Position numbers and translations under genes: made by a program. A model generated the notes under the pieces. It searched no databases and was not told the origin of the DNA. It saw only the letters and a list, made by a program, of their open reading frames with translations. A stretch of DNA of 44,321 nt from Pseudomonadota bacterium (GTDB lineage Bacteria > Pseudomonadota > Alphaproteobacteria > SHVZ01), in assembly GCA_016195085.1 (NCBI GenBank), contig JACQAG010000075.1, positions 1 through 44,321 on the forward strand. The letters run 5' to 3'. Positions 17,508-21,865 of this stretch are shown here, piece by piece. Each line of letters starts with the position of its first letter. The stretch's first letter is position 1.

Positions 17508-19319
17508 ATGCAATTAACACAAGCTCTCCGCAATTCGACGGGTGCGCCCCCGGGGTCGGGGACCAGGGGGAACGCGGCGGGCAACCCGAGCCATTCCTTG
17601 TCAGCTCAGACGATCACTCTCTCCGCGCAGTGGCGCAGTCTCCCCGAGCGGCTCGGCCGGCTCACGGCCGATCACGCCTCGCTTGCGCTCCTCATCGCCC
17701 TCACCGGCCTGGTGCTGGCGACGGTCGGCGACTACGGCATCACCTGGGACGAGGACGTCCACAGCTACTATGGCAACCTCGTCCTCAACTATTACACTTC
17801 TGGCTTCCAGGACACCGAAGCGCTCACCTGGTGGAACCTCTATGAGTACGGCGCCGCCTTCGATGCGCTGGCCGCTCTCCTCAATCAGATCTCCCCCCTC
17901 GGCCTCTACGAGACCCGCCACCTGCTGAATGCCGCGGTCGGCTTGCTCGGCGTGCTTGGCACCTGGAAGCTGGCGCGCACCGTCGCCGGCCCGAGGGTCG
18001 CCTTCTGGGCGGCGCTCTTCCTCGCACTGGCGCCGACCTATTACGGGCACATGTTCAACAACCCGAAGGACGTGCCCTTCGCCGCCGGCATGGTCTGGGC
18101 GACCTACTATGTCGCGCGCATGCTGCCCTCGCTGCCGGCGCCGTCCTTCTCCCTGGTGCTCCGCTTCGGCTTGGTCGTCGGCGTCACCGCCGGCGTGCGC
18201 GTGGGCGGGCTCATGCTCATGGGCTATCTCGGGCTCGCGATTGCCGCCTGCGCGCTGTGGCGCGCCTCCGATGCGCGGAGCCTCGGCCGCTTCCTCGGCG
18301 ACGGCGTCCGCGGCCTCATGCGGGCTTGGCTCCCGGCCTTGCTGGTCGCCTATCCGGTCATGCTGCTGGCCTGGCCTTGGGCGCAGCAAGCGCCGCTCGC
18401 CAATCCGTTCCAGGCGCTCTGCGACTTCTCCCATCACACATATCCGTGGAAGACGCTCTACAACGGCGATTATTACTGGGCCGACCAGACTCCTTGGTCC
18501 TACCTGCCGGTGCACATCCTCCTGAAGACGCCGGAGCTGTTCGTGCTCCTCGCGGCGGCGGCCTTCGGCTGGGCCTGCTGGCGCGTGGCGCAGCGTCGGT
18601 GGTGGCAGGACCGCACCCACGCCCTCGGCCACGCGCTGGTCGGCTTCGCCGTGCTGTTTCCCGTCGTCTACGCGGTGGCCATCCGCGCCATCCTGTTCGA
18701 CGGCATGCGGCACTTCCTGTTCGTGATCCCGCCGCTCGTCGTGCTGGCGGCGGTCATGTTCGAGCATGGGCTCGCATGGGCACGGACCTGGCGCTGGCGC
18801 TACGGCGCCTACGCGGCGGTCGCTCTCTATTTCGGCTATCTCGGCTCGGTGATGATGCGGCTGCATCCCGATCAGTACGTCTACTACAACGCATTCATCG
18901 GCGGCGTCGACGGTGCCGAGGGCCTGTTCAAGCTCGACTACTGGGGCAACTCCTACGCCGAAGCGGTGCACGGGCTGGAGAACATCCTGCGCGAGAGCTA
19001 TGGCGACGAGTTCGAGTCGCGCAGCTTCAAGATCCGGGTATGCGGCCCGAAGGTGCCGGCCAAGTATTATTTCCCCGCGAACTTCGTCGAGACCTTCGAC
19101 GACGACCAAGCCGATTTCGCCATCGCCATGTCGAACTACGTGCCGAACGGCATCGACACCGCCGAGCGCGAATGCGCCCGCGCGCTCGCCGGCCGCGAGA
19201 TCTATCGGGTCCAGCGTCTCGATACGCTGCTGTCGGTGGTGGTCGACCGGCGCGAGCTCAAGATCGGCCAGAGCCTCGCCTTGCGCGCCTCGGGCCGCCT
19301 CTCCAACCCCAAGCAGTGA
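17508..19319 (+). CDS. polytopic membrane glycosyltransferase, GT39/PMT-like
   Basis: 603 residues with roughly ten hydrophobic segments between about 55 and 460. The first outer loop carries GITWDED, an acidic motif where GT-C enzymes (PMT, ArnT) hold their catalytic Asp/Glu. A soluble C-terminal part follows (about 470-603). Such proteins transfer a sugar from a polyprenyl-phosphate donor on the periplasmic side. ATG at 17508 is chosen over a TTG at 17490. The epimerase gene overlaps its stop by four bases, so the two are translationally coupled and likely act in one glycan pathway. GT family is inferred from topology and the acidic loop. Confidence 0.75.
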   Translation: MQLTQALRNSTGAPPGSGTRGNAAGNPSHSLSAQTITLSAQWRSLPERLGRLTADHASLALLIALTGLVLATVGDYGITWDEDVHSYYGNLVLNYYTSGFQDTEALTWWNLYEYGAAFDALAALLNQISPLGLYETRHLLNAAVGLLGVLGTWKLARTVAGPRVAFWAALFLALAPTYYGHMFNNPKDVPFAAGMVWATYYVARMLPSLPAPSFSLVLRFGLVVGVTAGVRVGGLMLMGYLGLAIAACALWRASDARSLGRFLGDGVRGLMRAWLPALLVAYPVMLLAWPWAQQAPLANPFQALCDFSHHTYPWKTLYNGDYYWADQTPWSYLPVHILLKTPELFVLLAAAAFGWACWRVAQRRWWQDRTHALGHALVGFAVLFPVVYAVAIRAILFDGMRHFLFVIPPLVVLAAVMFEHGLAWARTWRWRYGAYAAVALYFGYLGSVMMRLHPDQYVYYNAFIGGVDGAEGLFKLDYWGNSYAEAVHGLENILRESYGDEFESRSFKIRVCGPKVPAKYYFPANFVETFDDDQADFAIAMSNYVPNGIDTAERECARALAGREIYRVQRLDTLLSVVVDRRELKIGQSLALRASGRLSNPKQ

Positions 19320-20314
19320 GCGAAGACCCGCGCTTCGCCTGGTTCGCCGGCAGGCGGGCGCTCATCACCGGCGGGCTCGGCTTCATCGGATCGACCTTGG
19401 CGCACCGCCTGGTTGCGCTCGGCGCCCGCGTCACCGTGGTGGACAGCCTGATCCCGGAATATGGCGGCAACCCGTTCAATCTGGATACGCTTGCCGACCG
19501 GGTGCAGGTCAACGTCTCCGACATTCGCGACGTCTACAGCTTGAGCTATCTCGTCGCCGGCCAGGAGGTGCTGTTCAACCTTGCCGGCCAGACCAGCCAT
19601 CTCGACTCCATGCACGAGCCCTTGGCCGATCTCGAGATCAATTGCCGCGCCCAGCTCACGCTGCTGGAGACCTGCCGCAGCCATTGCCCGGGGATCAAGC
19701 TCGTCTTCGCCTCGACCCGCCAGCTCTACGGCAAGCCCGACTATCTGCCGGTCGACGAGCGGCATCTGCTGCGGCCGGCCGACGTCAACGGCGTCAACAA
19801 GATGGCAGGCGAGTGGTACCACATCCTCTACAACAACGTTTATGGGCTGAAGGCTTCCGCCCTCCGGCTCACCAACACCTACGGTCCGCGCATGCGCATC
19901 AAGGACGCGCGCCAAACCTTCCTTGGCGTGTGGATCCGGCTCTTGCTCGAGGACAAGCCCTTCGAGGTCTGGGGCGGCGAGCAGCTGCGCGACTTCACCT
20001 ATGTCGACGATGCGGTCGATGCGCTGCTCTTGGCCGCGACCGTGCCCGAAGTCGAGGGCCAAGCGCTCAACATCGGCGGCTTTCCCCCGATCTCGCTCAA
20101 TCGCCTGGCAGAGCTCTTGATCGGCGCCAACGGCAAGGGCGAAGCGGTCCTGCGAAACTTTCCGGCCGAGCGCAAGCGCATCGACATCGGCGACTACTAC
20201 GCCGACGATCGCCGTTTCCGCTCCTTGACCGGCTGGGCCCCCAAGGTCGATCTGGCGGAAGGGCTCAAGACCAGCCTCGACTATTATCGCCGCAATCTTC
20301 CGCACTATCTCTGA
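19316..20314 (+). CDS. NAD-dependent nucleotide-sugar epimerase/dehydratase, atypical active site
   Basis: 332-residue extended SDR. GGLGFIGS near residue 19 binds NAD, ASTRQLYG (S133/T134) is the Ser/Thr block, and the substrate region has RLTNTYGPRM and DFTYVDDAVDA. In the position of the catalytic YxxxK the sequence is NGVNK: K162 is present but Asn158 replaces the tyrosine. The rest of the fold is intact, so this looks like a divergent subfamily rather than a dead gene. The GTG at 19316 overlaps the membrane transferase stop (GTGA). It probably makes or modifies the sugar used by that enzyme; the reaction is unknown. Confidence 0.85.
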   Translation: MSEDPRFAWFAGRRALITGGLGFIGSTLAHRLVALGARVTVVDSLIPEYGGNPFNLDTLADRVQVNVSDIRDVYSLSYLVAGQEVLFNLAGQTSHLDSMHEPLADLEINCRAQLTLLETCRSHCPGIKLVFASTRQLYGKPDYLPVDERHLLRPADVNGVNKMAGEWYHILYNNVYGLKASALRLTNTYGPRMRIKDARQTFLGVWIRLLLEDKPFEVWGGEQLRDFTYVDDAVDALLLAATVPEVEGQALNIGGFPPISLNRLAELLIGANGKGEAVLRNFPAERKRIDIGDYYADDRRFRSLTGWAPKVDLAEGLKTSLDYYRRNLPHYL

Positions 20315-20461
20315 CTAGGAGCCTGTCCGAGTAATCGAAACGGCGAAAGAATGATTCAACATCGCCCTCGCCTCCGGCAGATTCATTGCGCCATGCTCAC
20401 CATGCGCGCAGCCAAGTTTCAATTTTTGAGCTCCGTCTCCATTACTCGGACAGGCTCCTAG
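20315..20461. mobile_element. MITE-like element 1 with 17-base terminal inverted repeats and CTAG ends
   Basis: GAGCCTGTCCGAGTAAT at 20319-20335 has a perfect inverted copy at 20441-20457, and both are flanked by CTAG (20315-20318 and 20458-20461). The 105-base interior has no gene. This is the form of a small non-autonomous element with a 4-base CTAG target duplication, a target preference known for IS5-group transposases. The left CTAG begins right after the TGA of the upstream epimerase gene, so insertion did not damage it. Confidence 0.8.
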
Positions 20462-20730
20462 CCCCTATTTCTCATACCAACCGGGTCAGCGATGGGCTCA
20501 TGCGATCACAGGCAAGGAAAGGCGCGAAGAGCGATGCAGCGCATCGGTCGAGCGGCTTGACGCGGCATGTGATCGCAGGAGCCCATCCCTTCGGGTCGCC
20601 CGGCGAGGGGGCGCCCGACGTCGTCACGGGTCTCGACCGTAGCTTTGGCTACGCTCTTCGACCCGTTCCTAGCGGATCGCCCCCTCGCCGGGCGACGCTG
20701 ATCCCGGTTGGTATGAGAAATAGGGGCTAG
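20458..20730. mobile_element. MITE-like element 2, highly structured, sharing a CTAG with element 1
   Basis: Terminal inverted repeats of 24 perfect bases (20462-20485, beginning CCCCTATTTCTCATACC, and 20703-20726), again bounded by CTAG (20458-20461 shared with element 1, and 20727-20730). Inside are three more arms: 20491-20510 pairs with 20568-20587 (20 bases, one mismatch), 20595-20613 pairs perfectly with 20678-20696, and 20626-20632 pairs with 20660-20666 around a CGTAGC/GCTACG tip. The whole can fold into a branched cruciform. No coding frame is credible. Confidence 0.8.
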
Positions 20731-20734
20731 AGCC

Positions 20735-21865
20735 ATGGCGGGCTTGAGCGTGCCGCAGAGCGATCCCAAGGCCGGCTATCTCGCCCACAAGGCCGAGATC
20801 GACGCGGCGATCGCGCGCACGCTCGACAGCGGCTGGTACATCCTCGGCCGCGAAGTGGCCGCCTTCGAAGAGGAATTTTCCCGCTTCGTCGGCCTCGCCC
20901 ATGGCATCGGGGTTGCGAACGGCACCGATGCGCTGGTCTTGGCCCTGCGCGCCCTCGATATCGGTCCTGGCGCCACCGTCGCCACGGTCTCGCATACCGC
21001 CGTGGCCACGGTGGCGGCGATCGAGCTCGTCGGCGCTACCCCGTTGCTGATCGACATCGATCCCGGCCGTTACACGATGGACCCGGGCGAGCTGGAGACG
21101 GTGCTCGCGGGCGAAGGCAAGCGGATCAAGGCCGTCATCCCCGTGCATCTCTATGGCCAGCCTGCGGCGATCCAGGACATCCAGAAGCTGGCGGACCGCC
21201 TCGGTGTCGCCGTCATTGAGGATTGCAGCCAAGCGCATGGCGCCATGGTCGGCAACACCCAGGTCGGCCGCTTCGGCCGCATCGCCTGCTATTCGCTCTA
21301 TCCGACCAAGAATCTCGGTGCCCTGGGCGATGGCGGCGTGGTGCTGAGCGACGATAAAGCCCTGGCCGGCCGCGTGCGCGAGCTCCGGGAGTATGGCTGG
21401 CGTGAGCGCTATGTGAGCGCCATCGCCGGCACCAACAGCCGGCTGGATGAGCTGCAGGCGGCGATTCTCCGGGTCAAGCTCAACCATCTTGCCGCCGACA
21501 ACGAGCGGCGCCGGCGGATCGCCACGGACTACGATAGCGGCTTGGCGGGGTTGGGCTTGGGCTTGCCCGTGCGCGCCGCCGGCGCCACCCATGTCTATCA
21601 TCAATATGTCGTCACCACCGCGGTACGAGCGCGGCTGCGCGAGCTCCTCAAGGAGCGCGGCATTGCCACCAACATCCACTATCCGGTTCCGGTGCACCGC
21701 CAGCCGGCCTATGCGGGGCGCGTCCCCTTGGGCCCGGCCCAATGCCGGCAGACCGAGCGTCTGGCCGAGAAGATTCTGAGTCTTCCCATGTATCCGCAGC
21801 TGAGCCGGGCGCAGATCGACCATGTGATCGGCAGCTTGCGGGATACGGTTCAACGCACTCAGTGA
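20735..21865 (+). CDS. DegT/DnrJ/EryC1/StrS-type nucleotide-sugar aminotransferase
   Basis: 376-residue fold-type I PLP enzyme. D163 and Q166 (IEDCSQAHGA) contact the cofactor and K192 (YPTKNLGALGDGG) forms the Schiff base. The family transfers an amino group to a keto-sugar nucleotide (for example dTDP-3-keto or 4-keto-6-deoxyhexoses). The rfbB product is such a 4-keto sugar, so a dTDP-aminosugar branch is plausible. The ATG at 20735 lies five bases after element 2; the only ribosome-site-like sequence, AGGGG at 20722-20726, is the end of that element. It was probably once continuous with the epimerase operon. Confidence 0.92.
   Translation: MAGLSVPQSDPKAGYLAHKAEIDAAIARTLDSGWYILGREVAAFEEEFSRFVGLAHGIGVANGTDALVLALRALDIGPGATVATVSHTAVATVAAIELVGATPLLIDIDPGRYTMDPGELETVLAGEGKRIKAVIPVHLYGQPAAIQDIQKLADRLGVAVIEDCSQAHGAMVGNTQVGRFGRIACYSLYPTKNLGALGDGGVVLSDDKALAGRVRELREYGWRERYVSAIAGTNSRLDELQAAILRVKLNHLAADNERRRRIATDYDSGLAGLGLGLPVRAAGATHVYHQYVVTTAVRARLRELLKERGIATNIHYPVPVHRQPAYAGRVPLGPAQCRQTERLAEKILSLPMYPQLSRAQIDHVIGSLRDTVQRTQ

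Follow-up and report, generated by a model that had tools for sequence, protein, structure and literature searches.

MITEPye1 of Paracoccus yeei is a non-coding, intergenic element of 159 bp, bounded by 18-bp terminal inverted repeats (TIRs) of the IS1182 family and by 4-bp direct repeats, that folds with a dG of -47.9 (PMC11578231). Direct repeats of 4 bp have also been described for the IS1182-type element ISPse1, and of 5 bp for the IS1380 element IS1247 (PMC3281130). CGTC-tagged REPs, found mainly in alphaproteobacteria, were found to lack a partner transposase, and 'a broad spectrum of transposases' was suggested as what might move them; dimers of these REPs within palindromes were noted in H. 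neapolitanus (PMC3733652). The foldback MITEs NEMIS, ERIC, RUP and Nezha are non-coding and intergenic, 70-300 bp long, and have TIRs and a strong secondary structure (cf. PMC3733652). Searches of the literature for IS1182 or IS1380 MITEs, CTAG targets, RIME and three-way-junction repeats returned nothing beyond PMC11578231, PMC3281130 and PMC3733652.

Here, we describe two elements, A and B, that abut between an epimerase and an aminotransferase gene in a stretch of DNA of 44,321 nt (hereafter, the window). Judging from their ends, copies and flanks, they are very probably two independent MITEs stacked at one target, A of the IS1182 type and B of the IS1380 type, which would have been mobilised in trans and which now stand between genes that overlap in relatives. 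A is like MITEPye1 in its non-coding nature, its IS1182-family TIRs, its intergenic site and its fold-back, as compared by features and not by alignment; it differs in its length of 147 bp, in the genome that carries it and in being abutted by an IS1380-type MITE. The transposase of the IS with B-type ends belongs to the same family as ISs such as IS1247 (PMC3281130), but B has no transposase ORF, its structured interior is absent from the IS, and TA or CTAG is found at B as against the 5-bp direct repeats of IS1247 (PMC3281130). The elements also resemble NEMIS, ERIC, RUP and Nezha in size and general build, with other TIRs and other targets. The features of the locus are as follows (window coordinates):

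19286 to 20314, plus strand: NAD-dependent epimerase/dehydratase gene (approximate start), the 3' part of the ORF at 18257-20314 (PF01370, 149 bits)
20315 to 20461, no strand: element A, predicted non-coding IS1182-type MITE of 147 bp; ends as in full-length IS1182-family ISs and elsewhere in the genome
20315 to 20335, plus strand: left arm of A with the outer CTAG
20441 to 20461, minus strand: right arm of A with the shared CTAG
20458 to 20461, no strand: CTAG common to A and B (TA target copy); the last C of A and the first G of B may complete the CTAG
20458 to 20730, no strand: element B, predicted structured IS1380-type MITE of 273 bp; other copies in the genome, ends matching those of the genome's own IS1380-family IS (C46:15454-17099)
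20458 to 20485, plus strand: left arm of B; positions 17-24 vary among copies, with pairing kept
20511 to 20566, plus strand: hairpin 1 of B (model R1), 72.7 bits; G.A-rich internal loops, CGTC tag inward; itself in the model training set
20588 to 20594, plus strand: mini-hairpin of the junction, CCTTCGG, also in related elements
20618 to 20674, minus strand: hairpin 2 of B, 73.9 bits; homologous to hairpin 1 in the opposite orientation; itself in the model training set
20703 to 20730, minus strand: right arm of B with the outer CTAG
20735 to 21865, plus strand: DegT/DnrJ/EryC1/StrS aminotransferase gene (PF01041, 356 bits)

The TGA stop of the epimerase adjoins A without a gap, and is followed in order by CTAG, A, CTAG, B, CTAG and AGCCATG. 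The three CTAG copies start at 20315, 20458 and 20727, the middle one being common to both elements. The arms of A consist of CTAG and a perfect 17-nt repeat, GAGCCTGTCCGAGTAAT (29 nt at 93% identity counting CTAG), and enclose 89 nt; those of B consist of CTAG and a perfect 24-nt repeat, CCCCTATTTCTCATACCAACCGGG (28 nt counting CTAG), and enclose 217 nt. An earlier note on this DNA had described two abutting TIR elements bounded by CTAG, and its coordinates and its arm lengths of 17 and 24 nt are correct.

The ends of both elements recur in the genome and reversed-pattern controls gave no match, which excludes chance. The A end is found on contigs C5 (206 bp) and C42 (63 bp) and as single ends at other places (0 matches at full identity with the reversed pattern); the B end gave 29 matches at one mismatch (0 with the reversed control). 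Beyond this genome, the A end TAGGAGCCTGTCYGAGWAAT is widespread, being present in 118 stretches from Planctomycetota, Acidobacteria, Nitrospira, Chloroflexi, Bradyrhizobium and others. At five loci that were fetched, A-type end pairs lie 1.47-1.56 kb apart, preceded by CTA and followed by TAG; these ISs of about 1.5 kb have the same flanks as A itself. In a Nitrospira MAG, the ORF between A-type ends codes for an IS1182-family transposase (NF033551, 375.6 bits, cut-off 270). The TIR of A, GGAGCCTGTCCGAGTAAT, is identical at L137, L090 and other loci, and identity to the full-length ISs extends over about 18-20 nt. Moreover, five contig ends in one genome (G127) stop inside a single A-ended IS, each at CTAG with a different flank. 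A, with 147 bp and no transposase gene, did not match the transposase at L137. By its end match, target flanks, short length and absence of a transposase, A is assigned to the IS1182-type MITEs on sequence grounds. An origin of A from a known IS1182 element by loss of internal sequence was also considered; this was rejected, as the 105-nt interior of A had no significant match in five full-length ISs or in the other loci compared. A search of the own genome (assembly about 96% complete) for an IS1182 transposase gave 0 PF05598 matches, whereas PF05598 is present in the relatives G002 and G003; since the enzyme was not found in its own genome, A may now be immobile here. Separately, two very short A-type palindromes of about 31 and 63 bp were seen in the own genome (L034, about 1485-1522, on C83; L031:1501-1563, on C42), apparently two A-type ends joined almost without an interior.

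Besides the B copy in the window, the 4.8-Mb genome contains four that are simple and full-length, along with several interrupted or partial ones; the full-length copies show about 81-85% identity to the one in the window. A pair of B ends 1,646 bp apart on C46 (C46:15454-17099) encloses an intact IS1380-family transposase gene of 457 codons (C46:15588-16919; NF033539, 405 bits, cut-off 180; PF13701, 519 bits), and a similar IS1380-type IS is present in the relative G006. The B end CTAGCCCCTATTTCTC and that of the own IS, CTAGCCCGGATTTCTC, are equal at 14 of the first 16 bases, CTAG included, and differ at two; a longer comparison sets CTAGCCCGGATTTCTCACA of the IS beside CTAGCCCCTATTTCTCATA of B. 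With dispersed copies that have no transposase ORF and a putative helper gene in the same genome, B classifies as an IS1380-type MITE. Searching the genome for both TIRs and for full-length ISs with matching ends, as had been suggested earlier, showed that both TIRs recur and located full-length ISs, in the own genome for B and in others for A. These ISs bear on the family that the earlier note had invoked. It had taken the CTAG target as fitting IS5-group behaviour, and A and B might both be MITEs of IS5-family ISs, of an IS5 group that uses a YTAR target; the target is compatible, and IS5 and IS1182 have a distant DDE domain in common, IS5 models matching the IS1182 ORF below cut-off (best 86.5 versus 140 bits). 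However, full-length ISs with A or B ends carry IS1182 and IS1380 transposases according to curated models, above cut-off; an IS5 origin was rejected on helper identity and we regard it as highly improbable.

CTAG is rare in the GC-rich window, with 34 copies seen as against 145 expected from base composition and 56 from a Markov model. Among 52 A-type elements with both ends, TA is present on both sides in 34, of which 27 have C and G outside it and seven do not; the pattern search demanded TA on at least one side, so that only the other side is informative. B copies on C5 and in G004 are flanked by TTAG and CTAA. As far as can be read from these flanks, the duplication proved is that of TA, usually within CTAG, from which a 4-bp CTAG duplication is indistinguishable here; the C and G outside the TA may be part of the ends of the elements themselves. 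The IS1182 and IS1380 families both insert at TA inside CTAG (YTAR), and because the target is the same, one element could enter the target copy that the other had left behind. Matching ISs would provide transposases in trans that cut the ends of A and B, and each element would insert at TA within CTAG and duplicate its target; after the first insertion, a CTAG would flank the element at both ends, and one of these copies would have served the second. Since CTAG is palindromic, A-first and B-first are not distinguishable. In this way, two unrelated transposase families acting on one small palindromic target would allow the insertion of one element to supply the landing site for the next. Abutments of the form A-CTAG-A were found in three unrelated genomes (L105, L165 and L041), and the A-CTAG-B junction, among the loci examined, at this locus only.

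The exact abutment and the common CTAG could also mean that A and B are a single composite element that moves as one unit. Such an origin is very improbable, and was rejected, in that A and B each occur without the other at many sites and, in the loci examined, meet at this one alone. The earlier note had proposed two unrelated MITE-like elements, one of which inserted into the target duplication of the other, and the proposal is borne out: the CTAG is shared, A and B also occur singly, the repeats are not confined to this locus, and they do not always come together as a unit.

In a sister genus, the epimerase gene is followed directly by the aminotransferase gene (66-74% identity for the latter) with a 1-nt stop/start overlap, TGATG, at all six close-homologue loci that were read; these six loci come from five genomes, one of which has two, while a sixth genome (77% complete) has a distant paralogue only and is outside the count. 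That the two genes look like former operon partners, as had been noted before, agrees with this overlap. The window junction has about 21 extra bases relative to the relatives, which makes the empty site here approximate. There is nevertheless strong evidence, from comparison of these junctions, that A and B inserted between operon partners. A relative with a single CTAG at the empty site had been named as a further check: no base-exact one was found for the locus itself, where the junction of the relatives differs, but a clean one exists for the B copy on C55, through whose insertion point five relatives align straight, one of them with a single TTAG. As to the consequences, the two elements place 416 bp with predicted strong stems between the stop codon of the epimerase and the start of the aminotransferase, so that the translational coupling expected from the 1-nt overlap in relatives would be lost here. 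Simple consensus scans for a sigma-70-type promoter or an intrinsic terminator within A and B found none. The locus is an ordinary nested MITE pair in an operon.

At four other insertion sites, L007, L008 and L011 (own C55, C5 and C61) and L039 (C60 of G004), the flanking CTAG or YTAG has an in-frame TAG with at least 100 open codons on each side, as if it were a stop common to two putative convergent genes and regenerated for both by the insertion. This in-frame double-stop pattern is seen at none of the 30 other CTAG sites in the window. CTAG at several sites may double as a stop codon, and insertion would then spare the neighbouring genes.

The interior of B is a matter of its own. All five full-length copies fold end to end into a three-way junction (MFE about -197 to -216 kcal/mol), in which an outer stem of 33 bp encloses a pair of long hairpins separated by a mini-hairpin (CC-TTC-GG); hairpins 1 and 2 are homologous, mirror-image, head-to-head and CGTC-tagged. 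The predicted fold comprises 111 pairs, and 98.2% of the 555 pair cells in the five copies, all from one genome, are standard. Pairs changed on both sides number 27, compared to 12.3 +- 2.2 in shuffles (0/500), and sliding the partners by 1-3 columns lowers pairing to 36-41%. The outer stem, with its 33 pairs, has 11 that changed, all of them on both sides; column variability is 0.30 in paired and 0.17 in unpaired positions, and G-U accounts for 6/555 cells. Because changes between copies are compensated in both the arms and the inner stems, the pairing of B is being kept, whether through selection acting on one folded strand of DNA or RNA or through the copying of one arm from the other. Covariation beyond shuffles was absent from 13 Planctomycetota IS1182-type copies; on their account, the idea that pairing is maintained in all such MITEs was rejected and is confined to B and the hairpin core described below.

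The primary role of B might be that of a functional RNA with a defined structure, acting for instance in the 3' UTR of the operon as an element for processing or stability, with mobility as a secondary trait. The covarying stems and conserved loops (variable columns, 30% paired versus 17% unpaired) and the conservation of the hairpin across the class are in keeping with such a role, but we consider it unlikely: the hairpins are oppositely oriented, so that each DNA strand has one G.A-type hairpin, 6/555 G-U cells is a small number if an RNA had evolved stepwise, two copies in the relative G004 have hairpin 2 in inverted orientation to each other, and copies lie at unrelated gene ends. B also has no Rfam family; with permissive thresholds, a search of 16 loci against Rfam 15 gave nothing acceptable within B or the elements related to it, and a known structured RNA was discarded as a candidate on that account. 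The sole match in B was to a microRNA family below threshold (30 versus 77.5 bits); the search also returned a near-threshold match to the suhB/mmgR sRNA, from which, together with the composition of the class, the host is probably an alphaproteobacterium.

The matching arms could instead be a by-product of DNA metabolism, in which one arm is rewritten from the other through extrusion of a hairpin or cruciform and template switching, and the fold has no function. Long perfect palindromes are good substrates for template switching, and the changes in the 33-bp arms are compensated, with no one-sided or G-U intermediates. Conversely, the class as a whole shows conserved loops and tags, the variable pairs are clustered (columns 17-24 and 145-148) and not spread, and the 13 Planctomycetota copies show no such covariation; arm copying is a somewhat doubtful possibility.

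A covariance model of the hairpin, built from 13 training sequences and applied with E<=1e-4 as the limit for a match, detected the core in 30 of 289 genomes of the class, often with at least 10 copies per genome, up to 19 candidates having been scored in each. In many genomes the core commonly comes as a plus and minus pair about 105 nt apart. Across 38 matches, 94% of cells pair (67% in shuffles), 14 of 16 pairs covary and sliding controls give 23-40%; the alignment was fitted to the model and includes a few of the training sequences, so that the absolute figures lean towards structure. The ends around the core, in the roughly 20 loci that were fetched, are of the IS1182 type (L283, L293), of the IS1380 type (L274, L280) and of about ten other kinds, nearly all of which start with TAG or YTAG. 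Three-way folds of a related kind, bounded by IS1182 ends, are also present in Acidobacteria, Gemmatimonadota and Planctomycetota, and beyond the class the model gave clear matches in Geothrix and Holophagaceae, both of which had contributed training sequences, and weak ones in other Acidobacteria. At L282, L285, L289 and their neighbours we also noted elements that contain the core and are bounded by, for example, TAGAGCATGRTGTTTTC, YTAGAGCGGKTCAAGG and TTAGTGCCCCCTATCAT.

The interior of B could be read as an independent structured passenger, a pair of head-to-head, CGTC-tagged hairpins with G.A loops that is carried in MITEs of unrelated families (IS1182, IS1380 and, by their ends, perhaps ten others) and whose pairing is actively maintained; we advance this tentatively, as possible rather than probable. 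If true, a structured passenger would explain the spread of CGTC-type repeats that have no transposase of their own, and a core under many transposon ends would be a concrete answer to a question raised in 2013, namely by what means CGTC-tagged palindromic repeats can move when no transposase is dedicated to them. Like CGTC REPs (PMC3733652), the hairpins of the B core are mostly alphaproteobacterial and have a CGTC or CGTT tag (26/38 and 10/38 core matches, respectively), head-to-head pairs and a short CC-containing tail. They differ in that the REPs have a plain stem of 8-9 bp that starts with A/T and a loop of 4-5 nt, whereas a hairpin of the core forms about 16 pairs in a stem interrupted by internal loops of the G.A type, the first stem bases of the core are mostly GC (22/38) and the dimer of B is enclosed in IS-type TIRs. 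Given their stem length and the lack of an A/T stem start, we do not class the B hairpins as CGTC REPs; at most, they work like them. The core of B is a covariation-supported structure without a name, open to testing.

Several B copies carry extra hairpins. At L011 (C61), L012 and L018 (C6 and C55 ends), L013 (C45), L016 (C59) and L019 (C5:32950-33133), a hairpin of about 60 nt beginning with GGGGGTGGGATTTAGGAGGGGGTG replaces the apical loop of hairpin 1, at a constant position across these copies; L012, L013 and L018 have a second one, TCCACGAGGGTTCCTACCCTCGTCGGACC, in the basal loop of hairpin 2. In G004, two B-type copies (L039:1343-1614 and L263:92-363) are near-identical with the apical part of hairpin 2 mutually inverted, which suggests a flip by recombination between its arms.
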